Assembly (NCBI RefSeq): GCF_900496995.4
Contig: NC_044009.1
Span: 35,735,505-35,799,504 of the forward strand
DNA length: 64,000 nucleotides
From: Aquila chrysaetos chrysaetos
Taxonomy: Eukaryota; Chordata; Aves; Accipitriformes; Accipitridae
Direction: 5' to 3'
Shown here: positions 1 to 64,000 of the stretch, piece after piece
Layout of the letters: the number at the start of each line of letters is the position of its first letter
How positions within the stretch are numbered: the stretch's first letter is position 1
The notes under the pieces: model-generated
The model's database searches: none
The model's input: only the letters and a program-made list of their open reading frames with translations
Told to the model about the DNA's origin: nothing
Program-made: the position numbers and the translations under genes

Positions 1-3000
1 GACACCACCTTCGAGTACCAGGTAGGACCCCATGGGATGCGGGACCCTGCGGGATGCGGCACTGCTGCGCCAGCGTCGCTCAGGGTGCGCAGGGCTGCCC
101 TGCGGCGGTGCTGTGCCCAAGGGACAGGGCTCTTCGTGGGGTTCCCCAGGAGCTGTGCCGCCAGCACATGGCTGCCAAGTCTCTCTTTGGCCGTGCTGAG
201 GCACCAGCGGCACCGGCAGAGACCTCACGGGTCAGCAGCGTCTCGTCCCAGTTCAGCGATGCCCCGCAGCCCAGCCCCAGCTCCCACAGCAGCACGCCCT
301 CCTGGTGCGAGGAGCCCGTCCAGTCCAACATGGACATCTCCACTGGGCACATGATCCTGGTGAGCTGGCCTGGTGGGGTGGCAGTCCCCCTCCCTGGCCC
401 CCCATGTACCCCCCGGGCTGCTGGGCTGACCCCCACCCCTCTGCCCTAGGCCTATATGGAGGACCACCTCCGCAACCGGGACCGACTAGCCAAGGAGTGG
501 CAGGCTCTCTGTGCCTACCAGGCTGAGCCCAGCGTCTGCTCCATTGCCCAGAGTGAAGCCAACCTGAAGAAGAACCGCAACCCCGACTATGTGCCCTGTG
601 AGCATCCCAGCCGCCCTGCCCCAGGGACCGGCTCCCAGGGCCGTGGCAGGAGGGCGGTGTGGGGCACGGGGATGCTTGCGGCCACAGCAGGCTGCGGCAC
701 GGGTTTGCCCGCAGCTCCCCTGGGCACTCGCCACATCCCCTGGCCTCCGTTTCCCCAGATGACCACGTGCGGATCAAGCTGAAAGCCGAGAGCAACCCGT
801 CCCGCAGTGACTTCATCAATGCCAGTCCGATCGTGAGTGATCACTGGGGGCTCCTGCCCACCCACCCCGCTCTGTGATGTGCTCAGCCCAGGCAAGGCTC
901 CCCCTCTGGGATGGAGCTGGACTGAGCTCACATCCCTGCGGGCTACAGATGTGAGCAATGTGCCTGCCCCATTGCTCAGACATGGTTAAAACCCATTTCC
1001 CTCCTGGCTGTGGCACCCAAAGCTCTCTCCCCAGCCTTCCCATCACCCCTGGAGTATCCCCCCGCTCCTCCCAGTGTCACTGACCCCTGGCCAAGGAGCG
1101 TGCGGTCTGACATTCCCTTTCCCGCTCCAGATCGAGCATGACCCACGGATGCCAGCATACATCGCCACGCAGGGGCCGCTGTCCCACACTATCGCCGACT
1201 TCTGGCAGGTGAGCATCACCCAGCTGTGCCAGCCCATCGGGGTCCCTCTGGGTGCTGCCAACCAGATGGGTCACCGCGGCTTGGCCGCCCTCCCGCCTGG
1301 GCTGTCACCCAGCAAGTGACACCCCACATGCCTTGCCTGCAGATGGTGTGGGAGCATGGCTGCACCGTTATCGTCATGCTGAGCCCGCTGGCCGAGGACA
1401 GCGTCAAGCAGTGTGACCGCTACTGGCCAGACGAAGGCTCCTCTCTCTACCACATCTATGAGGCAAGTGTGACCGGTAGCCTGTGGCAAGGAGCATCCTC
1501 CAGCTGCTGTCCCGCCGAGTGAGTGCAGCCCCCCTGCCTGGCGCTGACGCCCACCGGCTGCTTCTCTCGGGCAGGTGAACCTGGTGTCGGAGCACATCTG
1601 GTGCGAGGATTTCCTGGTGCGCAGCTTCTACCTGAAGAACGTGCAGTCGCAGGAGACCCGCACCCTGACGCAGTTCCACTTCCTTAGCTGGCCGGCCGAG
1701 GGCATCCCCGCCACCACCCGGCCCCTCCTCGACTTCCGCAGGTGAGTGCCCACCTGGTGCCATGCCAGCCCCCGGGAAGCCGGCGGTGTTCCCGACCTCA
1801 GGGGGACTGATGGGCGAGGACATCGCTGCCGGTGTGATGAGGGTCAGGGACGTGGCATGGACTGGCTGGGGGAGACGGGGGGCTGCCGTGCATGGGGAGG
1901 AGCAGAAGAACCAGATTCTGGCCAGCTTGGGATGAGGCTCAGCGGAGCTTGGTGGGCAAGAGCCCTGCAGGCTGAGGTTGCCAGGGCTCTCCAGCCTTCA
2001 TGGGGAGGGTGGAAAAGTGCTCTTCCCCAGAGCTGGCATGGGGGACAGTACTGGCTGGCACCCTCCTCAGCTGTGGGTACGAGAAGAAACCCCCGGAGCC
2101 AGCCTTGAACAGCTGTGACCCATTGCTCCCCATGCCCTACAGCCAGCGGCAGATCCCCAGCTGGCCTGGGGAGAGGGCTGCGGGGCTGGGACTGCTCCCA
2201 AGAGGGCTGCGGGCAGCACCCGCTGGGGTCTCGGGGTCCCTGGGTGGTGGTGGGCTCTTGCAGGGGGTTGACCGGTCACTGTCCCCAGGTTGCGTGGGGC
2301 CAGGGACCCTGCTTAGAGCAGTGGGGGGTCCCTGAGCACATTGCCCTCCTCTCCACCCTGCTCATGCTCTCTCTGTCTCTCTGTCTGTCTCTGTCTCTCT
2401 CTCGCAGCTGCCAGTGTCATTTTTGTGATTTGCAGCTAGTAATCTGGCTCCAGTTGCATAGTCACAAAAGTGATCGTTGGCAGCCGTGCCTGCTGCATGG
2501 AGCATGCCGGGAGCCCCACCGGCGCCTGGCCCCCAGCTTCGCGCCCCACCGGACCAGAGCTGCTCCCTTGGGGGTCCTGTCACTGCTCCCCTCCCTGGGC
2601 TGGGCACCCGAGGAGCCAGGCTCCTCTCCCTGCCGTGGCCTCTTTCCAGCCATGGCCCCCATGCCGTGCCCAGCACCGCTGGGGAGGCAGGAGGAGCCAT
2701 GTGCTGGACCGACCCCCAGGGCCACATCATCGGGTGTCCGCTGCCCTCCCCCGGCTTGGCCCAGCGAGGAGCACCTAGTGCGACCTTGTCCCTGGCATGG
2801 CAGGGCACTGACCTGCTCCCTCTTGTCCTTGTAGGAAGGTGAACAAGTGCTACCGGGGTCGCTCCTGCCCTATTATCGTGCACTGCAGGTACTGCTGGGG
2901 AGGGTACGGGCTGGGGGGTGGCTGCAAGGCTGGGACCTGCTAGCCAGCACCAGTCAGTCCCTGGAGCCCATCCACCTGGTCCAAGTGTCTCTGTCTTGCA

Positions 3001-4180: not shown

Positions 4181-4829
4181 GACGGCTGTCAGCAGAAGGG
4201 GGTCAAGGAGGGGGGGCTACAGCGAGGAGGGGGGCAGAGCCCAGCCCCGCTGGCTGAGCCCAGCCATGCTGCCCCTCGCTGCTTCCCACCAGCACTCCCC
4301 TAGCAGCCTAATCTACAGCAACCCCCCCTCCAGCCCCCTCCCCTCCAGCCACCCATCACCACCCTCCCCACCACCTTGTGGTGCCCGGGGCATCTCCCCC
4401 CCCCAGCCCCAGGTATTGCTCGGCTATAAGCCCTGTCGTGCCCCCCACCCCCCCACCACCACCGCGTCCCACGGAGCCAGAGGGTGCTGGGGGAAGGGGG
4501 TGGCAGGGGGTGGCCGTGCAGGGACAAAGCGGAGTCCTGGCTGGGAGAGCCTCCGTGGGCGAGCGGGCGTGCGCGGTCCCCGGGCGCAGCAGCCTCAGAA
4601 CACACCTGGGGAGACAAGCGGAGGGGGGGACACAACAGCACCCGTGAAACCCTCCTCGGCCCAGGGCTGGGGAGGGGCAGGGAGGGAGGGAGGGAGGAAG
4701 GTCGCAGGAGGAGGAGGAGAGCCAAGGCAGGACCACGGGCAACAGTGAGGGTGGGAACGCCTCTGAGCATCACTGAGGGTCACTGCTGCTGCGGGAAGCA
4801 GGGAGGGACAGTAACCCCAGGCCAAGGCC

Positions 4830-11439: not shown

Positions 11440-14400
11440 GCCTGCAGGGAGCGGGCTCTCTGGGGTGGCTTCCTCTGGCCAGGGTGCCCTCGCTGGCTGC
11501 CAGGGGCTCTGATTCGGCCCATCTGCCCAGCAATGGGTGCAGGGCTGGCCCGGGCCGGGCTGGCACGGGCACTAGATGGAGCCACAGGCTGCTTCACAGG
11601 GACCCCATCCTGCTGGCTGGGAAGCCGAGGAGATGCCACCAGGACCTAGCCCTGTCTCGGCACGTTGCTTTCCTTTCCCTGGCTTTTGCAGCAGATGTGG
11701 GGACAAGGAGGCTCCAGAGCTGCCAGGTCTCAGCCCACTCTGTGCCCAGTGGACGGGGAGGCCTCCGTGCTGGGAAAGGAGAGGAACCCACGTGCTGGTC
11801 GCGACTCTGGAGCCAGGGCAACACAGCGCTGCTGCCTTTATGGCATGTGTGTCACTCATCCATGAGATAAGGATATGCAGTGAGAAGGACTTACACCTCC
11901 CTCATGTCCTCATGGGAGGCTGTGCGGAGTTGGGCAGTAGCCCGCCACAGCGCTAGTAGCAGAGAGGACGTGGTGCCAACCACACCTCGCCCCAGAGCTC
12001 CCACAATCACTCCCCTACTCAAACCAGTAAAGCCAGCCACCTTGCAGCAGCTGAAGAGAGGCAGCCCATCACCTCGCTGGTGCCTCGCATGGCACGCGCC
12101 TTCAGCCACAGCACCCTGCCCTCTTTTCCCTGCCCTTTCCTCCTAGGTCTGCCCGAAGTCCTGTTGCACCTACGTGCCAGCCTGGCTCACACCAGCTTCA
12201 AAACCAGCACAGGCATCTTGAATGTGTCTCAAGAAGACCCTTATTTCTTTACAAATTTTGGGGATCGCTGTGTTATGACCCTGTTTTTAGCTTTCCAGGG
12301 TCACAAAAATGCTCATGAAATACTCTCAAGGCTTTCTGAGAAAAGAGCTTTTGGGTGAGTGAAGCAGGACCCCAAAGGACCAATTTTTTTTGTCCTGGTT
12401 ACCCAATCTCTTAGGAAGCCAACTGAATTGCATCATAAACTCGTGCTATATTATTATGCAAACCACATATTAAGAGAGATATTTTTTTCAGTGCTGCTCA
12501 ACGTTTCATCTTTTGATTTCCTCCAGAGAACACAAACCCTGTCACAGCCTCCCCAAAACAGGCAATTACGTACTGCAAAATCATATTCTTGGCGATTTTT
12601 GAACTGTGGAGTGATGTGCTCGGCGAGTCACGTGCCCACTGCTCCCCTCGTCGTACCCAGCTGTCTCCCCTCCTCTTCTCCCTGCTCCCCAAGGGAAGGT
12701 CCCCACTCTGGGGCAGCCGTGTGGAGATGCAGCAGGGAGGGAGCAGGAGCTAAAGCCAGTGGGACAAGATGAGAAGTGGTTGAGCAGAGCGAGGTAGGCT
12801 CCCGGGTGCCATTTCTGTGCCACCTTCATCTGCCTGCCCACTCCCAAGAGAGACAATGGCAGCGGCCATGGCTATGCTCCCCATCTCCGGGCACGGCCAC
12901 AGGGTCAGTGCAGCCCCCAGAAAAGGGATCAGTGGGAGCAGTGTGTTTGTTCACCTCTGGAAGGGCTGCACCAGGGTGGGGACCCCCGAGCACTGGGGGC
13001 TGGTGAAGGCTGGGGACATCACTTGAGAGGGGCATCCATTTTAAAGGTCTGTATTCATTCCTTTACCCCCACTCCTGCTGTCTCCTCCGAACAGCCCTGC
13101 CCAGCTCCCCTGACTTCCCTGCACACCCAATTTCTCCACACCCTCGTGTTTTTGATGCTCTTCATGCTTGTCTCGATGGCCGTGCTCTCAGCCTCCTACC
13201 CAAGCTGCTCTGTTCTCATCCCAGCTGGCTTTTCTAGAATTGCACCTTCTAGGAGCTGGGGAGTATCCAGAGAGGCAAAGTCATCTGGCTGCTTTTAGTC
13301 AGTGTAGCAGGACAGAGAAGTGAGAAACAGCAAAGTCGGGGTGACTTTCGTTCAAGCAGGGCAATGACTTTGGGCCGGATTCACAGACACAGGCTGTGCA
13401 TCCCAGGCACCGCCCCACGGGAGTGCTCGCCCGTGCTGATGCCGGGGCTGCTGCCCCAGCCAAAACCCAGGCAAAAGCAAGGTGCTTGCAGATTTTAAAT
13501 CAACAGAGTCAGAGGCTGGTGGAGGTGGCAGAAGCCCGTGACTAAACAGGTTATGCGCAACAAGCACACGCACGGGCCCAGGCAGCAGCTGATTTTCACA
13601 GCAGCAAGGGGCTTCACCCCATCCCTGGCACGTGGCTGGGAACAGGGTGGGCTGCAGAGCCTGGACAATCCTGTGATGTTCGGGAGCAGGGCACCCACAC
13701 CCACCCGTGTGGATCTGACCCCAAGGGAAGGGAGATCGGGGGCGATGAAAAGACTGATACTGCACACCCCTCCTGCAAATGTTGGGGGGCCCTTCAGCCA
13801 CGGAGGGGAGCAAAAGCTGCAGCTGACATAGGACAGGAAGGGATTTTGTTGCAAAGCAAAACCTGATTTCACTCATGCACACCAACACACCCATGCCCAC
13901 GGGCTCCCAAGCACCAAGACCCTTGTATCCAGCTGGCTTGGCCAAGATTTCCTGCAGTGCCTGGTAGGACTGGGGTCACCGTCTGTCTGGTCCTCACCAT
14001 GCCCTCCAGCTACGTGCCCGACCTTGACCTTGGCCTGTTGCCTTCATGCTAGGCATGGCTCAAAGGCAAAAAACGAGCCAAGCAGGGTGAAATGAAAAAG
14101 GAGATGGGGCGACTGCATTTGCATTAGAACAAAACAAGAAAAAACACAAAAGAATGCCAGTAAGCAACCTTCTGCTGTTTTCCATAGCCATTGGTGCCTA
14201 AATACCAGTGCAATGCTGTGGATGCAATGGAGAAGGCTGTAATTTGGGTGCTATCTGTAACAAACCAGCATGTAAAGCATCACCTGCTAAAATTGATATT
14301 TTCAATTCATCAGGCCTACACTGGGAATATTAATGGTCCTGAGGGTCTTACTGAGCCACTAATGGTAATTTTTAACAGAGCCAAAGCACTGAAGGACAGA

Positions 14401-21565: not shown

Positions 21566-25358
<3,793 letters not shown>

Positions 25359-27406: not shown

Positions 27407-31082
<3,676 letters not shown>

Positions 31083-42482: not shown

Positions 42483-45400
42483 TTACGTGTGGCCAGCCCG
42501 GGCCCGGCGGTGGGTTTGCAGGCAGGCCGTGGAGCAGAAGGAGAAGTCGAGGTAATGGAAAGGGATTCGGCCCAGCAGGGACTCTCCACAATGCCAGCAG
42601 CGGCTGCAGGAAAGAGCAGAGGTGGCCCTGAGCGAAGGGGACACTTGCAAGAGGGTTAGAGGATTCACTGCCTGGGCTATGACACAAGACACCAGAAGCA
42701 TGGGGGAGCTGGTGCTCCTCTGGTCCTATAGGGCTGACGTGATCACCCAGCAGCCCGGCAAGGACGTGCTCCCTGGAAGCGATGCTGCCTGGGAGCGTGG
42801 TGTGAGGCACGTTGAGGCAGGCTGAACATGGGGGAATTTGGTCCCGTATGGGGTTGTAAAGCCCCTGCCCAGAGCAGCACAGGTAGGGCTGGCTGCCCAC
42901 AAGCCTGTGGGGTGGCATAGGGAAGGGACATGGGATGTGGGTTCAGGGACAGGGGCACAGGAGTGGCTGGGGGTTGGCTTGCTGTAGATCTGGCTGCAAG
43001 TACGACCAAGTTGTTCTTTGCAAAATATTTCAGGGCGGCAGGGCAAGAGAGGGAGAAAACTTCTACACAGGCACTACTGGGAATCGAGCGGACAGGAATA
43101 GCTTTAGACTGGAAATGAGAACTAGAGCAAGAAGGGCAGGGAACAGCTGTGCTTATGTGGGAGAGTTTGTCTGCGGAGCCGTGCTGCCGGGGCTATTACC
43201 TGATGTTGGCAAGAGTTGTGCCAGTGTCCTCCCGCTGCGCAGCCAGCCTCTGCTCGGCAGCCAGCGCCCTCTGGGGAACAGAGAGACAGCTTAGCCCCCC
43301 CAGCTCCTGGGAGCTGCTGTGCCCAGAGCCCACCACATCGGCACTGCCCCAGCGAGGCTGGATCCCCTTCCCCATGCACGGCCTCACCTTCTCCCCGTCA
43401 GACAGGGCTGCGAACCGCTGCTTCTCTTCCTGCTCCTGTTCCCAGCGCTGCCTCTCCTCCCGCTGCGCCTGCTCCCGCTGCTTCCGCTGGGCTTTCTGTG
43501 CCCTCTTCTTCTCCAGCTTTTTGGCCTCCATCTCCTGCGTCAAGGGCCCTGGCACCTGGGGGCAGAGGGCAGTCAGCATCTCCCACTGAGCCAAGGGCAA
43601 TGGCACGAGTGGGCGAGGGGTGCTTTGCTCTGGGGTCCCCCAGCCCCTGGAAGGCGAGGGCAGAGGGCAGGCACCCACCTTGGCACGGCTGTAGTCGTAC
43701 TTGTCTGGATGGTCCACCATGAACTTGCGGAAGGCGTTGCGGGTTGGTTTGTCAGCAGAGACGCAGTAGGGGGTTCTGTCCTGCCTGTCTCTACAAGACA
43801 AGGATGACCAGCTCACCCTGCTGTCTTACTGCCTACATCCCACTGGGCTGTGAGCCCAGCAACTTCCCAGGGATGTCCAATGGGTATTGCAGGCCAGGGT
43901 ATCGCAGCCAAGGAGGGGAAAGTTGCTTATCCCTACACCAGAATCCCCCAAATTCTCCCCTTCTTGCATCTCAAATGCCCTGCAAAGGGTGGTCTCATCC
44001 CTAACCTCTGAAATGTCTACCAATAAACCTGGGAGCACTTTGGGGCAGTGCCTGCCTGCTGCTGTGCCAGACCAGGCAGGCAGAGAGAATGGTGGTTCAG
44101 CTCTTAGGCCTCCCGTAACAAACCCAGACATCTTGGCTGGGAGAGACCAACCCTGGCTGTCCCAGGACAAAGCTGGCACCAGTCTCCCATGGCTGAGACA
44201 GGAGGGAGCTGCTGGGCTCCTACAGCAGGGGCTGTGCTTGTCAACCGCTGGGCACCCTGTGGCCATACCTGAGGGCAGGGTCCGCCCCTGCCTCCAGCAG
44301 CAAGCGCACAGCCTCAGCCTTCCCTGCCTGTGCTGCCACATGAAGCAGGGTGCAGCCACGCTCATCCATGGGCTGGTTGAGCAGGGAGCAGGGCATATCC
44401 AGGGGCTGTGTGCCCTCCCCATCCTTGCTGTCCTCTGGCAGGCCCCCACTCTCTGGCACACCCAGGAGGTGCCGCAGCATTCCCACATCCCCCGTTTTGC
44501 AGGCAGTGAACAGGGCATCGCGGAGCTGGGTCTGAGGGTCTCCTGTGGGAAGAACAGGAGGGGAGTCTGACGGCTCTCTGGGCAGAGCGGTGCTCTGGTC
44601 TGACTATGAAACACATACAGCGCAGTTAAAGTATTGTCCTGCTAGCTGGATTTGAGCACTGCAGGATCTCCAGCACCGTCAGAGTCTGTGACAACATGCC
44701 ATGGCATTGCTGGGCACTGCTGGCAGCAGCCAAGCCCTCTCCCGAGATGAGACCCACTCCAATCTCCCCAACACACCTGGCTTAGCCAGGTGCTGCCTGC
44801 CCCCCAGTTCAGAGCTACTGCTCTGAACACACAGCTCCCTTGAAGGCATGTGCCTGCACTACAGCCATCCCACACCCAGCTGCTCTGGGCACCTGTGTGA
44901 CAACGTGCTCTTCACCCCGCTGCAAAGCCACCAGCAAATGGGGCAGGCATCCACCCGTCCCAGCTCTGGACTCCACTTACTATTGCCCCAGGGAAGGGGC
45001 TCAGTCCCAGCTTCCTCCTGCAGCTCCGTCACCAGCTTCAGGCCAGGCTGCCCACACTGGGTACCATGGCATCCTGTCTCTTCTGCACAGGGCCCTGCAC
45101 AGGGAACACATGGTGAGGAAGAGGGCCAGGGTCAGCCTGCACCCCAGCCGTGGCAGTCCCTTCCCCAGTGCCTTCCTACACTGTCCCCGGCCAGTTCTTC
45201 CCCTTCACCTTTCTCCACCTTCTTGTCCCGCTTCTTCCTCCTTTTGCGGTTTCGCTTGGGCATCACTTCAAACTCCCGGAGGTCCAAGGTCCCCAGTGTC
45301 ACTTCCACAGTCTCCAGTTCCTCTGCAGGGCTTTCCTCTTCTTCTTCCTCCTCCTCTGGTGCTGAGGGGGGTGATAAGACAGGGGCTGAGGCCCCACACA

Positions 45401-48742: not shown

Positions 48743-49238
48743 CGCTCCTGCTCCCAGCGGAAGGGACAGTGCCTGAGCGACGGGCCCGGCCGCGGGTGAC
48801 CGGACGGGCCCCCGCCCCTCCCCGAGGTCCCTCTCCCCGCCTGCCCCGGGAGCCGCCGGGGTTCCCGCCCCCCTCCCCCCGTCCGACCCCTCCCGCGGCC
48901 GCTGCCCCCGTGATGCCCTCCCCGTCCAGCCGTTACCCCCGCCCCTCGCCGGTAACGGGGGGCGCACGCCCCGTCACTCACGTGTGGCCGCTGCCGTCCC
49001 GACCCGGAAGCGCCCCTCAGCTCCCACACATCACATCCTCCCTCCCTACGGACCGCCGCTAGGCTCAGCCCAGCCTCCCGCCCTTCCGCCTTCCCATTGG
49101 CCGTCTCCCGTCCCGCCCCGCGACTGCCATTGGGCGTCGCCGCCGCCAGTCGCGGGGCGGGCGGGGCAGGGGCTGAGCGGGCCGGGCCGGGCCGGGCCGG
49201 GGCCGGCGGCGGCGGCGGCGGCGGCGCGGGTCCCCGCC
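48743..49238. promoter_or_regulatory. Bidirectional CpG promoter of ANKZF1 and ATG9A
   Basis: The two start codons are 496 bases apart on opposite strands. The interval is CpG-dense and lacks a TATA box. It includes repeated CCGTTACCCCCGCCCC-type GC boxes and CCATTGGCCG / CCATTGGGCG CCAAT motifs near 49094-49137 on the plus strand. Confidence 0.75.
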
Positions 49239-52200
49239 ATGGCCCACTTCGAGACGCAGTACCAGCGCCTGGAGAGCTCCTCCACCGAGTCTCCCCCCGG
49301 TGGCGGCGACCTGCTCGTCCACGTCCCCGAGGGCGCCAAGTGTGAGCGGCGGCACCGGCACCGGGGGTTGGGGCCTGGCCGGCGGCGGCGGCGGCGGGGC
49401 GGCGGCCTGAATCTGCGCCTGAGGGGAGCTGGGAAGCGGGGTGGCGGAGGAGGCCTTGGGGACCAGGGGTGTCCGGGCTGCGGGAGGCAGATCCGAGCTG
49501 GTCCAGGTGGCCGGGGATGGGGGGGAGCAGCCAGGGACCGAGGGGAGAGGCTGGGCACCGAGGGGAACCGGGGATGGGGGCTGCGGGGCCGGTTTGGGGC
49601 CTCGGGGGGCCCGGGACAGGACGCGAAGAGGTGGGGTTGTGCCTGTCGCAGCAGCAAGGCTGGGTGTGCTGGAGGGTCCCTCACCCTGCGCTGCTTCTTC
49701 CTTCAGCTCCGTGGCATCACATCGAGAACCTGGACCTCTTCTTCTCTCGCATATCCTTTCACAAGGCAGGGTTCAGGTGGGATGTACCCCGCCGCCTCCT
49801 GGGCTCCCTGTACTGGTGGAAACACTGGGTTTGGTGTAACTCGGAGCTGGGGCAGCGTCTGCCCCTTCCCGGAGAACACCACAGGGCTCCAGAGGGGCTG
49901 GGGGATGGCAGAAACCCCATGCCTGTGGGGTGCTGTCACTCAACACTGAGGGAACACACAGGTTCTTTCAGGGGTCCTTGGCAGAGTGATGACGGTACTG
50001 AGTTGTGGTTACAATTAAAGCTTTATTTTCTTCACGGGATTTTATTATTAGGGTAGTGTAGCATTTATAATCAGAGTAGCACAGGATTTCTGTAAGCAGA
50101 ATCAGTGTAGTACAATTTTATAAGTAGCATAGTACAGAATTTTATAGCACCGCTTAGCTTATGGTTTCTAATCAACTGGACTCTCTGCAGGTTGGGTCAT
50201 ATCTTAATACATGGTTTGCTGTATCAGTATAACAATCATAATCTAGACCCAAAAATCATATAAAAGAATACAAGTCACTTGCTCAGTCCTTGGAGGAAGC
50301 AGACCATGGTGGGAGTATCCCTGGCTACTGGGGTGTCCTGGGTCTCACTGTCCAGCAGCAGTTCTGGTCCGAGTTCCCACTTAGGACTTGTAACGCCTTG
50401 ATTTTGTCGACAGTGCTCGGGTGCTGTTACACTGCCCTGTTCTGTGACAGGGTCATCGCTGCCATCGGGTTGGCCAGGTGCATGGGACCTTCAAGGCTGA
50501 CACAGAAAGGAGTAATCAGCCTTGTGCCCAGGAATCTTGAGGCCGCTAGGGAAGAGAAGAAGAAATCTGTTTGGTTTGTCTGCTTGGCTCACAGGACCTT
50601 CAGGGCTTGATAATGAGGGAAGGCAAACTAATAGGTGACGCAGACAGTCACAGAGAATGGCTGCCTGCCTTATACAATGGCATTAGTTATGCTAACCACA
50701 TTACCAGTGGTCAGGAGCAGGGGGTACCAGTCACAGGTGCTAGGGGTATTAAATGCATTTTTGCCTGTCTCTGTGTTGTCCTGCCCTGCCCACCCTTGTG
50801 CGGCCTGAGGGCAGGCTGAGTTTCTGTTCTGTGCTGGGACAGAGCCCCCTCTGGGTGTTGGGTAGGGGAAGAAAGGAGCTTGAATTGAGCCAAGTCCACT
50901 TACCCCAGCTGTGCTTTACCTGGGCAGAGCGTGTTTCCCTGCAGTGGAGAACCAGCTTGTTGATGAGTAGGGGTGGGAGGGGTTTTCCATTGGTGGTGGA
51001 GGGAGACTTGGCTGGGGAGCTATGAATGCTGGTGGGACAAAAGCCTCACCATCCTCTGTCAGAGAGGAGTCTCCAGACAGTTCTCCTTGACTGTAGCTTT
51101 CACGTCTATAACCTGCATCAGAAAAATGGCTTCACCTGCATGCTCATTGGAGAGATCTTTGAGCTCATGTAAGTACAGGTTCCCCCTCTGCTGTGGCTGT
51201 GACAGCTGCTGGTGAGCAGCCACAGGAGTCGACTCAGTGCCCTGCAGCTGGGTGGGCAGGAGGGTTCCCAGTTGTCTTGTCTCCCCTTTGTTAGGATTTG
51301 CAGTGCCCCAAACCTGCATTCCACTCTGAAGAACTGGTGCCCTTGAGCTTTCCTGCTGCCATGACTGTGGGAATGCATCTCCATGACACATGACCCTGCC
51401 TGGTTCACGTTTTGGGGAGCAGAAGGATGGTTCCCTCACGCTTGCTCCCTTTTTTCACAGGCAGTTCATCTTTGTGGTGGCATTCACCACCTTTCTTATC
51501 AGCTGTGTTGATTATGACATCCTCTTTGCCAACAAAGCAGTAAATCACAGCCAGCATCCCAGTGAGCCCATTAAGGTGACTCTGCCAGATGCCTTCCTGC
51601 CTCCAAATGTCTGCAGTGCAAGGTAAGGGCAGTGGAGGGCATGTTAGCCACCTCTCTTGCTTTCTCAGGTACTCAGGGTACCTGCCTGGGCCTGTCTCCC
51701 ACTACTTGCTGCTTCTTGCTTGCAGAATCCAGGCAAACAGCTTCCTCATCTGCATCCTGGTGATAGCTGGGGTTTTCTGGATCCATCGACTCGTCAAATT
51801 TATCTACAACATTTGCTGCTACTGGGAGATTCACTCTTTCTACATCAATGCCCTCAAAATCCCGATGGTAAGTAGCCAGGCCAAGGGCCATGTGCAGGGC
51901 CGCTAAGGGATGCAGGAGGCATTTGCTGAGTGGTGAGAAGCAGCTCACCTTCACTCCTCTTTGGAGCCATCTTCTCCGGGAGATCTGTACCTAGCGCTCT
52001 TCCCTCTGCTCCATCAGGATAGATCTCCTTTCAGCCTCTTCTCCAGCAGCCAACTTATTCTGTGTTAACCCCTCCCTGCCCAGCCTGCCTCTCTGCCTGC
52101 TGGCACACACCTCTGCCATCTGCCACCCAATATGTTTAGTCTGTGATGGCCTTTTCTGTGATACCTTTCAACAGAGAAGCCATAAGCGAGGATATCCTCC

Positions 52201-55200
52201 TACCTCCCTGGGTTGTGGACAACGTCATCTTCCTTGTTTACTGGGGGGGGAAACTGAGGCATGGAGGTACCTAGTTGGCAAAGACCACACTGGAGATCAG
52301 TGTGTCAAAGATGGGGTTTGAGGCTTGCACGTATATCCTAGTCCAGAGTCCTTGCTCTGATGGACAACATCAAAAGGTGTGTGCGCATCCTTTGAGGAGA
52401 GACCGTGTCTTGAGAGGTGGGGTGAGCCAGGACGCTTGGTTTGTCCTCAGCTTTTCCACAGGCTCCCTCTGGGACACTGCTTAAGTCCCTTCCCCTGTTT
52501 GTGTCTCCCTACTGACTCCAAATGGCAGCTCTGGGAGGACCTATGGGAGCCTGGAGCTGTGTTCGTGCCTCCAAGGCAGCTGGCATGTGAGTGGCTGGGA
52601 AATAGTCATCTGCGCTAATCTAGGGATAAAGGGCACTGGGGCAAGGTATGGGTTTTGCTTGCTGCAGGCTGAAGTGGTGCAGGGAGGTGCCTCGTGTCCT
52701 GGTGTTCCATGTGCTTAGTCAGCACCCTGAGGCATGTGCGGGGCCCTGCTGTTTGAGTGGGCTCAGCCCAGCTTCTGCCCCTTGACGCATCCTGCCCCTA
52801 ACCTTGCTGCTTGCCCTCTTGCAGTCCACCCTGCCATACTACACCTGGCAGGAGGTGCAGGCCCGCATTGTGCAGATCCAGAAGGAGCACCAGATCTGCA
52901 TCCACAAGAAGGAGCTGACGGAGCTGGACATCTACCACCGCATCCTCCGCTTCAAGAACTACATGGTGGCCATGGTGAACAAGTCGCTGCTGCCTATCCG
53001 TTTCCGCCTGCCCCTGCTGGGAGACACCGTCTTCTACACACGTGGGCTCAAGTACAACTTTGAGCTCATCTTCTTCTGGGGGCCTGGCTCCCTCTTTGAG
53101 AATGAGTGGAGCCTGAAGGCTGAGTACAAGCGGGCCGGGAACCGCCTGGAGCTGGCTGAGAAGCTCAGCACTCGCATCCTCTGGATTGGCATTGCTAACT
53201 TCCTCCTCTGCCCCCTCATCCTCATCTGGCAGATCCTCTACGCCTTCTTCAGCTACACAGAGATCCTGAAACGGGAGCCAGGCAGCCTGGGTGCCCGCTG
53301 CTGGTCTCTCTACGGCCGCTGTTACCTCCGTCACTTCAATGAGCTGGACCACGAACTGCACTCACGCCTCAGCAAGGGGTACAAGCCAGCTTCCAAGTAC
53401 ATGAACTGCTTTATCTCCCCGCTCCTCACCATCGTGGCCAAGAACGTGGCCTTCTTTGCTGGCTCCATCCTGGCTGTGCTCATCGCTCTCACCATCTATG
53501 ATGAGGATGTGCTGGCGGTCGAGCATGTCCTGACCACGGTCACCCTGCTCGGGGTGGGCATCACGGTGTGCAGGTGAGGTGGGTCTGTGCTGCCCCTGTG
53601 CTCCTGGCAGCGCTGTGGGGAGCAGTGGGGCTGACAACCATCCATGCAAGCATGCTCTTTGGTTGCAAGTGGATGTGAATCTGCCTGAGTGAAGGGCACA
53701 GCTGGGTAGAGTCAGGGGCCCGCAGAAGAAGGGGTGGTCTTGGGTGCAGTGGTTGTATGATATGAGTGGTGTTGCTGGAGCTATACAGCAACACCCCAGG
53801 TCTCGGCTGGCAGGAGGGTTTGGCTTAGGTGTGAAGGCTACAGGCGGAGCTGTGATACGGCCGGTCACCCCGCCCTCCCAGGATGAGATCGCCCAGGAAC
53901 TGAGGTGTGATGCTGTGATGTTTCCCTGTCCTGTCCTACAGGTCTTTCATCCCCGACCAGCACCTGGTGTTTTGCCCAGAGCAACTGCTGCGCGTCATCC
54001 TGGCGCACATCCACTACATGCCTGACCACTGGCAGGGCAATGCCCACCGCTACGAGACCAGGGACGAGTTTGCCCAGCTCTTCCAGTACAAAGCGGTGAG
54101 CTTGGCTTGCATGGGGCTGGGATGGGGACTCGCCCCCATCCCTGCAGGAAGGAGAAGCTGCCAGAGAGCTGAGCAGCTACTGGCCTGGCAGAGGAACAAG
54201 GCAGCTTTCTCAGAGACACCCTTCTCGAGAAGATGGAGGGCTGGAGCTGGGGGCTGGCTTTGGGATTGCAGGTTTTTTGACACCCTCAAGCTTGTGCTGA
54301 GCCTGTCATCTCTGTGCTCAGGTCTTCATCCTGGAGGAGCTCCTGAGTCCCATCATCACGCCCCTGATCCTCATCGTCTGCCTGCGGCCCAAGTCCTTGG
54401 ACATCGTTGACTTCTTCCGCAACTTCACCGTGGAGGTGGTGGGTGTGGGCGACACCTGCTCCTTTGCCCAGATGGACGTGCGCCAGCATGGCCACCCAGC
54501 GGTAGGTCCTGTGGGTGGCGGAAGAGCAGCCTGGGCTCCCCACCAGCATGTCTGGTCCTTCAGATCCATGAGAGGCTGTAACTCATCACTCCTGGCAGCC
54601 CACAGCCCAGCCCAGCCACCTGCCTCTCTGCTGGGTGTCTGGGGCTGCCAACACAGGTCACCAGCCCCAGAAGGCTCTTGTGGCCCAGCTGTTATTATTA
54701 ACCTGGTATTTTGTGAACCAGGCTTTGTCATTTCATTATTTGATCTCCTTGCCTGTCTTCACAACCAAGAGTTCTGTGTCCTCAGGAAAGAGGAATGGGG
54801 ATATTTGGACATTTAGAAAGCATCACCACTAAGAACTGACTTAAAGAAGCTGGGCTGCTTGTGCCCAGGAGAGGGGTAGCCTCGGGGAGATGGGAGGCAT
54901 TTTCCATTATGTAAAATCTAGTGTGGAGGGAGAGGGGATCCATATATTCCCTGTGCCTGGGAATTTAGGTTATTTGTCACAAAAGATTCCCTAGTGACAG
55001 AGCCATGAGCTAGGGAGGGGGTGGACTCACTGTGGCAGGAAGCTTTTAAGAACATTCATTTGCTGACTGTAGTCGCTCCTGCTGCGAGCTGGAGAGTGCA
55101 GGATGAGGCTTTCAGCTCGGTATTTTGTGACTAGTCCCTGTCTCCAGTTCCTTGCAGCGATGCACATTCTGGGGTGGAGGTGGAAGACGGTGTGCTTGCT

Positions 55201-57473
55201 GCTTCTTCCCCAGGCTGTGAGGGCTGCACTATTATGGGGCTTTTGGTGTAGCGCCTGCTACACGTGGAGCCGCAGCCCAGCTTATGCTGGGTGTTGCGTG
55301 CTTTGCCCAGACTGATGGCAGGATTGCCAGGCCTTGTAGGGGTGTAAAGCAGATCCTGTTACTCATTACCTGTCTGTGCTTTGCAGTGGATGTCAGCAGG
55401 AAAGACGGAGGCCTCCATTTACCAGCAGGCCGAGGACGGCAAGACGGAGCTGTCCCTCATGCACTTTGCCATCACCAACCCCAAGTGGCAGCCGCCCCGC
55501 GAGAGCACGGCCTTCATCGGCTTCCTGAAAGAGCGGGTGCACCGGGACAGCAGCGTGGCGCTGGCTCAGCAGGCTGTGCTCCCTGAAAACGCCCTATTTA
55601 GCTCCATCCAGTCCCTGCAGTCGGAGTCGGAGGTGCCCAGGCTGGGGGGCATGCGGGGTGTTCTTGGGGTGCTTGCTGGGTGCTGGCAAACTGATAACCA
55701 GGCCCTCTGGGCAATTTTGCCCTTGCCTGGGCTGTATCTGGAGCTGCAAGTGTAATACATCAGCACTAGTTCGGGTGCTTCTGGGTTTCTGGAGAAGGCA
55801 GCAGGCTGTCCTGGGGCCCTGTGAGCTGGGAGAGGGGCTGAGAGAGCTGAGGTGCCTTAGTTCTCTGTCGCTGGTGGGGATCAGGCCTCCAAGCCTGCAC
55901 AGGACAGTGATTCTCTCCCTTTCAACTCTGCAGCCTCACAGCCTGATTGCCAATGTGATAGCGGGCTCCTCGGCACTGGGCTTCCACATGGGCCGGGACG
56001 GACAGGTCTCTCGCCATCTCTCCGAAGTGGCCTCGGCCCTGCGCTCCTTCTCCCCGCTCCAGTCTGCCCAGCAGCCTCCCAGTGGCTTCCAGACGGTGGG
56101 AAGAGATGGAGAGGGAGCCCAGCCTCGTGGTGCCAGTGCCATGACAGCTTCTGGGTAAGCTGCAGGCTGGAGAGGGGCGGTCGGACACCTTGCAAATTCC
56201 TTAAACCCTTGTCCGATTGCCATCCTGTTCTCCTAGGTGCATGGTGGCATTTGTCTCTGCAGCCTGGGACAGCAAGGGACACGTTCATAAGCAGAGTTAG
56301 GCCCAGGTGCTTAGGCTGGCCCCAAAGGACAGTGTGGGGTTCTGGTGTTCTGTAGGTACCACTGTGGTGAGAAACCCCTGGCAGGGAAGAGGCAGTGTCA
56401 TAGCAGGGCTGGTCACCTTGTGCATCTGGGGAGATGCTACAGAGGGCCTGTTCCTACCCATCCAGGAGTCGATCTCTGCAAGCCTGACATTAGAGCGGAT
56501 TGGGGCTGGGCGGTGTGGGGGACACCTGGGCAGCAAACACCACTTGTGTGTCCCATGGCAGTGCCGATGCGAGGACCGTGAGCTCGGGGAGCAGCGCCTG
56601 GGAGGGTCAGCTACAGAGCATGATCCTGTCGGAGTACGCCTCCACTGAGATGAGTCTCCATGCACTCTACATGCACGAGGTGAGCAGCCTGGAGGTGGGC
56701 CAGCCAGAGGGGTGTGGGGTCAGGGCAGGCAGGACTGGGGTATCCTGTCTAGAGTGACTGGGATACCAGTGTGAGTGTGAGCTGAGACCAGGGTGTGTAC
56801 AGTGCTGTGGAGAGGGTGTGTTTGGGCATCTGGACTCTCGCACGCAGCTGACTCATTCGTGTTTTGGCCTGCAGTTGCACAAGCAGCACGCCCAGCTGGA
56901 GCCTGAGCGGCACACTTGGCACCGTCGAGAGAGTGACGAGAGCGGGGAGAGTGCCCATGAGGAGCTGGACGCTCAGCGGGGTGCCCCCGTCCCCATCCCT
57001 CGCTCTGCCAGCTACCCCTTCTCCTCGCCACGGCAGCCTGCCGAGGAGACAGCCACGCTGCAGACCGGCTTCCAGCGGCGATATGGTGGCATCACAGGTA
57101 CAGGAGCCAGGGCAGAGGTCTGAGCTCCGGGTCAAAGCCCCATATCCGATGCCCTGTATGGACTGGCACGAGCAGCCTGCCTGCCCCTGAAGACTGACAG
57201 TCTCCCAAGCAGCTAATCTTCCTCCTTGCCTCTCCTGCAGACCCGGGCACAGTGCACAGAGCCCCATCACACTTCTCTCGCCTCCCTCTGGGAGGCTGGG
57301 CTGAGGACGGGCAGTCAGCGAGACACCCAGAGCCCGTGCCAGAGGAGAGCTCAGAAGATGAGCTTCCACCACAGATCCACAAGGTAGGGGTGAAGGCTGT
57401 GGCTGAGAGGGGAAACGTGTACTCAGGATGGTCCCGATAGGTGCCGCATCCCCTCTCTGTCTTGCAGGTATAG
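49239..57473 (+). CDS. ATG9A: ATG9A autophagy lipid scramblase
   Basis: Fourteen coding exons: 49239-49341, 49707-49750, 51104-51168, 51461-51622, 51726-51867, 52825-53573, 53942-54095, 54322-54501, 55387-55632, 55934-56154, 56562-56679, 56875-57097, 57241-57383, 57468-57473; 851 residues (human 839). The N-terminus has the sorting motif YQRLE. The core has the family's membrane segments (for example FIFVVAFTTFLISCVDYDI, FLICILVIAGVFWI, the ILWIGIANFLLCPL region, and FFAGSILAVLIALTIYDED). The tail is Ser-rich and ends PPQIHKV. ATG9A vesicles seed autophagosomes, and the protein scrambles phospholipids beside ATG2. Intron 49751-51103 starts ATATCCTTT and ends AC, a U12-type intron. The last coding exon adds a single Val codon before the stop. 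Confidence 0.96.
49751..51103 (+). other. U12-type AT-AC intron of ATG9A
   Basis: The exon ends TTCTCTCGC at 49750 and the intron begins ATATCCTTT, the full minor-spliceosome donor consensus. The 3' end has a branch-site match TCCTTGACT at 51084-51092 (branch A 51090), then AC at 51102-51103, 13 bases on. Splicing here is in phase and gives FFSR-VYNLHQKNG, the conserved ATG9A sequence. No GT-AG alternative restores that sequence. Confidence 0.93.
49990..50760 (-). mobile_element. AT-rich insertion, possible solo LTR fossil
   Basis: An AT-rich island inside the GC-rich U12 intron. On the minus strand it carries a TATA-like signal (near 50145), irregular short repeats and AATAAA-type signals (near 50045 and 50025), in the order expected of a solo LTR. 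No internal genes, target-site duplication or clear TG...CA ends could be fixed. Family and age are unknown, and an ordinary AT-rich intron segment is an alternative. Confidence 0.25.
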
Positions 57474-61206: not shown

Positions 61207-64000
61207 ATGGCGGTGCTGGGGGGTTACTGTGAGGGCAACAGCTCCATCGCCCAGGCCTGGGTGCAGCAGGGCTTCCAGCCCTGCTTCTTCTTCACGCTGG
61301 TGCCGGCCGTGCTGCTGAGCGTCTGCCTGCTGCTGGGCGCCCTGCAGTACGCCTGCTACGTCCGCTTCGGCCGCGCCATGGAGCCCAAGTACATCCCCCG
61401 CTCCCGCCTCTACCTCAGCCAGGTCCTGCTGTCCCTGCTGCTGGCCCTGCAGCCCTTCGGCGGGCTGCTGTGGCAAGTGGGGGGGGCCGGGACAGCTCTA
61501 CGGGTACATGTTGCTGCACGCCTGCCTCTGGGCCCTCAGCTGGGGCTGCGCCGTCGCCCTCCTGCAGCTGGAGCATACGCGGGTGCTGGTGCACGACCGG
61601 ACGCGGGGCCATGGCACCGTCCTCCTCCTCTTCTGGGCGCTGGCCTTCGCCGCCGAGAACCTGACCCTGGTGTGCTGGAGGAGCCCGCTGTGGTGGTGGG
61701 CGCTGAAGGACACCAACCAGAAGGTGGGCTGGGGGCTGTGGGCAGGGAAGGGGGGCTTTGCCAAGGGGGGAGGGGTGGGCTGTGGCATCACGGTGCTGGG
61801 GTGGGATGTGCACGCCGTGCCCTGCCATGCCCAGGGTGTGCACGCTCCCGGGTTGCACCCACGTATCTGCCGCATGTCTTGGCCCCGAGCCCAGCTGTCG
61901 CACACATCTCCGTGCCCCCATCCGGCTCAGCTCCCGCTTCTGCCTGGCCCAGCCCCAGGTGCAGAGGCAGGGGGTGTCTGCCTGCTCCCCACAGCCCTTT
62001 ACCCCCTTGCTCCCCCCGCGGGGTAGGGACACCCCAAGCCAGAGGGCACAGAGCGAGATGTGGCAGGGAGGAAGGAAGGGGTCGGGGTGCTTCCTGAGGT
62101 GCTGTGCTCAGCCAGGGGCATCCCGCTGAGCTGCGTGGGGTGTCCCCTCTCCCCTATCTGCAGTGCACCCCATCCCTGTGCCCCGATCCTTGCCTCTCTC
62201 AGCTCATACCCATCGCATGCCTGGCCGGGCTGTGCCAAGGGCCAGCTGCGGCGCTGACCCCCTGCTCTCCGTCCAGGTGCAGTTTGGCTTCTGGCTGCTG
62301 CGTTACATCTGCACGTTCATGCTCTTCATCCTGGGCATGAAGGCCCCGGGGCTACCCCGCAAGCCCTACATGCTGCTGGTCAATGAGGAGGAGCGGGATG
62401 TGGAGAACAGCCAGGTGAGTCCCAGGGCTGGAGCAGTTTGGGGACATGGTGAGGGAGGAGCTGGGGACAAAATGGAAATACAGCTGCCCTGGGATCAGCA
62501 TCTTCAGGAGACCAGGGAGGAGCAAGGGTTAGGGCTGCCCAAGCTCCCCGCCTGCTGTTAGCAGCCTGCGGCCCTGCTGGGAGGATGGAGTGGGGACCCT
62601 GAGAGGACGGGGCTGGGTTTCTTGGTGGGGTGTTCCCTGGGGCCATTGCCAGCTGGACTGGGGTGCCGGGGGAGTGACGCCTTGCTCTGCTGTCCCCTAG
62701 CCGCTCCTGCCTGACGCCAGCAGGACCACCTCCACCTGGAAGGATTTCCGGAGGAAGCTGCGGCTGCTGGTGCCATACTTGTGGCCGAAGGGCAACCACC
62801 TGCTGCAGGGGCTGGTGCTGTTCTGCATGGCGCTCATGGGGCTGGAGCGCGCCATCAACGTCTTCGTCCCCATCTACTACAAGAACATTGGTGAGGGGCC
62901 TGGAGCTCGGCGTGTGAGGCTGCCCACGGCCTCACCAAGTGCTGGGGGGTGTTGCGAGTGACCTGGGGGGCTGCAGGGACCTGGTAGGAGCAGGGTCCGG
63001 GGGGGTCAGGGAGCAGTGCTGGGTGCTGCAGCTGGTTCCCGGGGGGCACCCATCGATGCTCCCTGACCCTCCACCCTGACCCTTGCCACCCTCTCCCCAG
63101 TGAACGAGCTGACGGAGGGTGCTCCCTGGCACACCCTGGCCTGGACTGTCTGCATTTACGTGGGGCTGAAGTTCCTGCAGGGTGGAGGTGCTGGTAAGGA
63201 CTGCTGGGAAGGACGGGGCACTGGGGAGAGACAGCATGGGGCACATCATGCCGGGGCTGGGGTGGCCGGGGATGCCCTTATGTCCCCATCACTGCTGCTC
63301 TCTCTTGGGAGCAGCAACCAGGGCTGGTCCGGTTTGGAGATAGCAGGGGGGTCCCATCCCAAATCCCTCTTTCCCAGCTGGGCTTTCTGAGCTAGCTCCA
63401 TGCCCCCGTGGCGCCGGTCCCCGCTGACCATCCTGTGGTGCCCCGCAGGCTCCACCGGCTTCGTGAGCAACTTGCGCACCTTCCTGTGGGTGTGGGTGCA
63501 GCAGTTCACCAACCGGCAGGTGCAGGTGCAGCTCTTCGCCCACCTGCACGGGCTGTCCCTGCGCTGGCACCTGGGGCGTCGCACCGGTGAGGTTCTGCGC
63601 AGCGTGGACCGGGGCACCAGCAGCATCAACAGCCTGCTCAGGTCAGAGCGTGCCCACAGCGGCTGGTGGGTGGCCGGGCAGCCCCACTGGGCCAGGCTGA
63701 TGCGCCATCCCCTTTCCCGCCCCACAGCTACATCGTCTTCAGCATCATCCCCACCATTGCAGACATCGTCATCAGCATCGTTTACTTCACCTCGGTCTTC
63801 AGCGCCTGGTTTGGCCTCATCATCTTCGTGTGTATGAGCCTCTACCTGAGTGAGTGGGGGGGTCGGGGTGCAGGGGTGTCGTGCCAGGCTGTGGGGCAGC
63901 GGGCGCCTGCCAACACAGCCCCCTCCTGCCCGCAGCTTTGACCATCTTCATCACTGAGTGGAGGACCAAGTACCGACGGGACATGAACACGCGGGACAAT
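61207..64000 (+). CDS. ABCB6: ABCB6 half-transporter, 5' part
   Basis: Exons: 61207-61723, 62277-62414, 62701-62890, 63101-63193, 63449-63641, 63728-63849, 63936-64000 (runs off the edge before the nucleotide-binding domain). The N-terminus [13 protein letters not shown] keeps the Cys8/Cys26 pair and an N-glycosylation site that are features of mammalian ABCB6. A TMD0 with several membrane helices follows, then the ABC transmembrane domain ([47 protein letters not shown]). Family role: ATP-driven export linked to porphyrins in lysosome-related organelles, plasma membrane and mitochondria. The first exon has one base too many for the frame, in a run of eight G at 61479-61486; without it the frame continues [14 protein letters not shown]. 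The ATG has a good context (AGGATGG). Confidence 0.94.

Follow-up and report, generated by a model that had tools for sequence, protein, structure and literature searches.

The question raised by this locus is whether an intron with AT and AC at its ends lies between two coding exons of ATG9A, and which spliceosome would remove it. We have addressed it in the whole stretch of DNA analysed, 64,000 bases long (hereafter the window), for which a first-pass annotation had proposed a U12-type AT-AC intron in this gene.

ATG9A gene model

An intact ATG9A gene lies on the + strand of the window, with an 851-residue reading frame that runs from ATG through stop (Table 1). The exon boundaries of the 14-exon model were placed by hand. 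The alignment of the full product with the solved ATG9A 6wr4 (839 residues), which we take to be the human protein, runs from one end to the other and scores 1618 bits; that with the solved ATG9B 8poe scores 684 bits. Residues 1-637 of the spliced product matched the Pfam family ATG9 (9.4e-176). With the ATG9A match standing above that of ATG9B, the predicted protein is an ATG9A orthologue, which agrees with the gene name given by the first-pass annotation.

In the hand-made model, 12 of the 13 introns have GT-AG ends and one, intron 2, has AT-AC ends. Since the 12 remaining introns are GT-AG, the splice sites of this stretch are not generally odd. The donor of intron 9 (GAG/GTGCCC, 55633-55638, + strand) looks weak as a U2-type site; its score of 2.76 on an approximate U2 donor matrix was the lowest among nine correctly placed ATG9A donors scored, a set that excludes the donors at 56155, 57098 and 57384.

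Table 1. Coordinates of the ATG9A features around intron 2 (window positions; a slash marks the cut)
Feature	Position	Strand	Remarks
ATG9A coding region	49239..57473	+	14 coding exons, 13 introns, 851 aa ATG to stop
Exon 2	49707..49750	+	closes with CGC, the R of FFSR; phase 0
Intron 2, AT-AC, U12-type signals	49751..51103	+	1,353 nt, phase 0
U12-type 5' splice site ATATCCTTT	49751..49759	+	sole exact match in window
Possible GT-AG intron inside the AT-AC intron	49777..51096	+	1,320 nt; donor CAG/GTGGGA, acceptor GTAG/CTTT
U12-type branch site TCCTTGACT	51084..51092	+	candidate branch A at 51090
Terminal AC of intron 2	51102..51103	+	intron closes ...CTGTAGCTTTCAC
Exon 3	51104..51168	+	opens GTC TAT AAC (VYN)

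The exon 2/3 junction

In the model, exon 2 ends with FFSR at 49750 and exon 3 opens with VYNLH at 51104, and the spliced protein aligned to solved ATG9A without any gap at this junction. We have then scanned 188 positions for the end of exon 2 against 160 positions for the start of exon 3, that is, 30,080 donor/acceptor pairs. The reference peptide was reproduced by two of them, 49750/51104 (AT-AC) and 49749/51103 (CA-CA), the second being a one-base slide of the first because a C stands on both sides. None of the 30,080 boundary pairs with GT-AG or GC-AG ends yielded the reference peptide. Near the junction, 60 pairs with such ends were open and in frame, and these were rejected because all of them altered the peptide.

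This supported the intron coordinates that had been proposed, 49751 to 51103. The accompanying claim that only this splice restores the protein stood with respect to GT-AG and GC-AG pairs, none of which does so, but fell short with respect to the CA-CA slide, which does. The terminal AT and AC are thus present at a junction fixed by homology, where protein sequence cannot separate the AT-AC cut from its CA-CA slide.

Within intron 2, a block at 50001-50300 (+ strand) is AT-rich, with a GC fraction of 0.347 compared with 0.52-0.59 in the remaining 300-base steps from 49701 to 51200. The block is possibly an inserted repeat.

U12-type signals and their chance level

The consensus of the U12-type AT-AC 5' splice site is ATATCCTTT, and that of the U12-type branch site is TTCCTTRAY. 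Over both strands of the window the donor consensus has one exact copy, at 49751-49759; shuffled sequence contained a mean of 0.04 copies, with at least one copy in 4 of 100 shuffles. At the other end of the intron, CTCCTTGAC (51083-51091) matches the branch-site consensus at 8 of 9 positions, the first T being the one missing. The candidate branch A, at 51090, lies 13 nt ahead of the final base of the intron (51103). The optimum distance between branch site and 3' splice site is given as 11-13 nt in section 4 of PMC3584512, and the spacing found here fits that range, although the counting convention of that section may differ from ours. The donor, branch site, spacing and terminal AC named by the first-pass annotation were therefore all recovered, the donor ATATCCTTT being exact and TCCTTGACT standing at a 13-nt spacing.

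We have also asked how often such motifs pair by chance. The strict patterns for the donor and the 3' motif were composed after the site had been seen, and pairs were counted within a distance of 10 kb. Strict pairs turned up in 2 of the 100 shuffles and loose pairs in 48; the window itself has five loose pairs, both strands counted together, where the shuffles average 2.25. One further strict pair lies on the minus strand of the window (donor at 11869-11876, branch motif at 4202). It was considered as a second U12 intron and rejected: by eye there is no coding junction at its donor, and the motif at 4202 lies just upstream of an AATAAA, so that the pair was taken as chance. The U12 motifs by themselves are weak evidence, modestly rare. 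The U12 call carries weight because they coincide exactly with the junction that homology fixes.

Taken with the homology, these signals point to a conserved U12-type AT-AC intron between ATG9A coding exons 2 and 3, a reading to which we give a probability of about 0.96. Judging from its splice signals, intron 2 is most likely removed by the minor spliceosome. As established for this class, the U11 and U12 snRNPs would recognise the donor and the branch site, U4atac/U6atac.U5 would join next and U6atac would take the place of U11 at the donor. The minor spliceosome would then excise intron 2 and join FFSR to VYNLH.

A nested GT-AG pair and alternative pathways

Inside the AT-AC intron there is an in-frame GT-AG pair, absent from the first-pass annotation, whose use would give ATG9A plus 11 residues. 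Its donor lies 26 nt in from the AT-AC donor and its acceptor 7 nt in from the intron end; splicing at these sites would keep the frame and add ISFHKAGFSFH. The pair is probably there by chance.

Two readings would give the pair a function. According to the first, the AT-AC intron and the nested GT-AG pair would form a twintron-like choice, such that a limiting minor spliceosome would leave the major one to make ATG9A with 11 extra residues in its N-terminal region. If true, the outcome would be this longer ATG9A rather than loss of the message. We consider such a choice very unlikely.

According to the second, the major spliceosome would use the nested pair (49777-51096) and ATG9A with the 11 extra residues ISFHKAGFSFH would be the main form. 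The pair keeps an open reading frame, and its donor scores 8.3 on the approximate U2 donor matrix, above four of the nine correctly placed ATG9A GT donors scored. The extra residues, however, have no counterpart in any of four distinct solved sequences (three of ATG9A, one of ATG9B); a fifth sequence, that of the more distantly related Atg9 7d0i, is uninformative there, as its alignment begins within the insert. The insert would also interrupt FFSRVYNLHQKNGFTCML, a block identical in solved ATG9A. Moreover, as 60 open in-frame GT/GC-AG pairs exist in the stretch scanned, finding one such pair is unremarkable, and splicing at it would leave the U12 motifs unexplained. Taken together, these points make the longer protein highly improbable as the main form.

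That the intron has AT-AC ends and is nevertheless removed by the major (U2) spliceosome, like human SCN4A intron 21, is compatible with the statement that terminal dinucleotides do not fix the splicing pathway (Background section of PMC2831892), but it is highly improbable, since the donor ATATCCTTT and the branch site TCCTTGACT are U12-type and, by eye, no long pyrimidine tract precedes the intron end (C or T at 9 of the last 13 bases, broken up).

Conservation and genomic context

The preferred reading, a conserved U12-type AT-AC intron, agrees with what has been published for this gene family. According to the text available from Sukseree and Eckhart (Genes, June 2026, PMC13299143), an AT-AC intron is flanked by exons 2 and 3 of ATG9B, and the homologous intron of ATG9A is of the same AT-AC type and of ancient origin. 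Because the type is shared with the homologous ATG9B intron, the intron described here would be ancient and no novelty of this lineage. On the evidence of that text, the AT-AC intron of ATG9A is already known, and the present case is one example of what has been published. The first-pass annotation had placed the AT-AC intron "in this species"; it is indeed present here, but that wording is too narrow for an ancient type that ATG9A and ATG9B share (PMC13299143).

Calling AT-AC introns a "small subset" of U12-type introns was fair but mild: they make up 18% of the U12-type introns of chicken in Table 2 of PMC7367187. The U12DB clusters reported in PMC2831892 include 204 AT-AC and 565 GT-AG clusters, and the same source reports that, when human is compared with other vertebrates, U12-type introns are conserved in 90% or more of the comparisons. 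An Atg9a splicing event is listed for mouse cells in PMC5063418.

If the minor spliceosome does remove intron 2, a core autophagy protein would be tied to it, and defects of this spliceosome could lower ATG9A through retention of the intron. The text of PMC13299143 also reports errors in the annotation of exon borders at the homologous ATG9B junction, so the exon 2/3 junction of ATG9A deserves care in annotation. ATG9B itself is described there as absent from turtles and crocodilians, and a figure legend gives ANKZF1 and ABCB6 as the neighbours of ATG9A.

In the window, a mitochondrial ABC-transporter N-terminal domain at 61207 (+ strand) fits ABCB6. The minus-strand gene upstream of ATG9A is presumably ANKZF1; the one ORF compared with Pfam from its region (minus strand, 43196-43816) returned no family. 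With its start codon read by eye, this gene lies head to head with ATG9A, their starts separated by about 500 bases (48743-49238), and a shared promoter in this interval is possible.

Elsewhere in the window, a mir-153 microRNA precursor at 2410-2481 (+ strand, 89.2 bits) was the sole Rfam match at the gathering threshold. Two neighbouring alpha-tubulin-like genes lie in the same orientation (24228-25358 and 29452-31082, + strand). The Pfam tubulin family was found in both ORFs compared, 24228-25358 and 29452-30039. By eye, the C-terminal protein sequence of the ORF at 30093-31082 looks near-identical to that of 24228-25358.

Comparison with known AT-AC introns

In Drosophila prospero, U2-type sites are nested in a U12-type AT-AC intron. 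The ATG9A intron resembles this layout in having U2-type sites within a U12-type AT-AC intron, a likeness that bears on the twintron-like reading only; unlike those of a listed twintron, the nested sites of ATG9A are putative. A table of PMC2831892 lists prospero among the AT-AC twintrons.

The closest relatives are the ATG9B and ATG9A introns of PMC13299143, with which intron 2 shares the gene family, the exon pair 2/3 and the AT-AC type. For ATG9A this is a likeness of type and position, the text of that article, as available, giving no splice-site letters for the ATG9A intron. Set against U12-type AT-AC introns generally (U12DB, IAOD), intron 2 has the same donor, the same branch site, the same spacing from branch to intron end and the same terminal AC, with no difference among the features tested.
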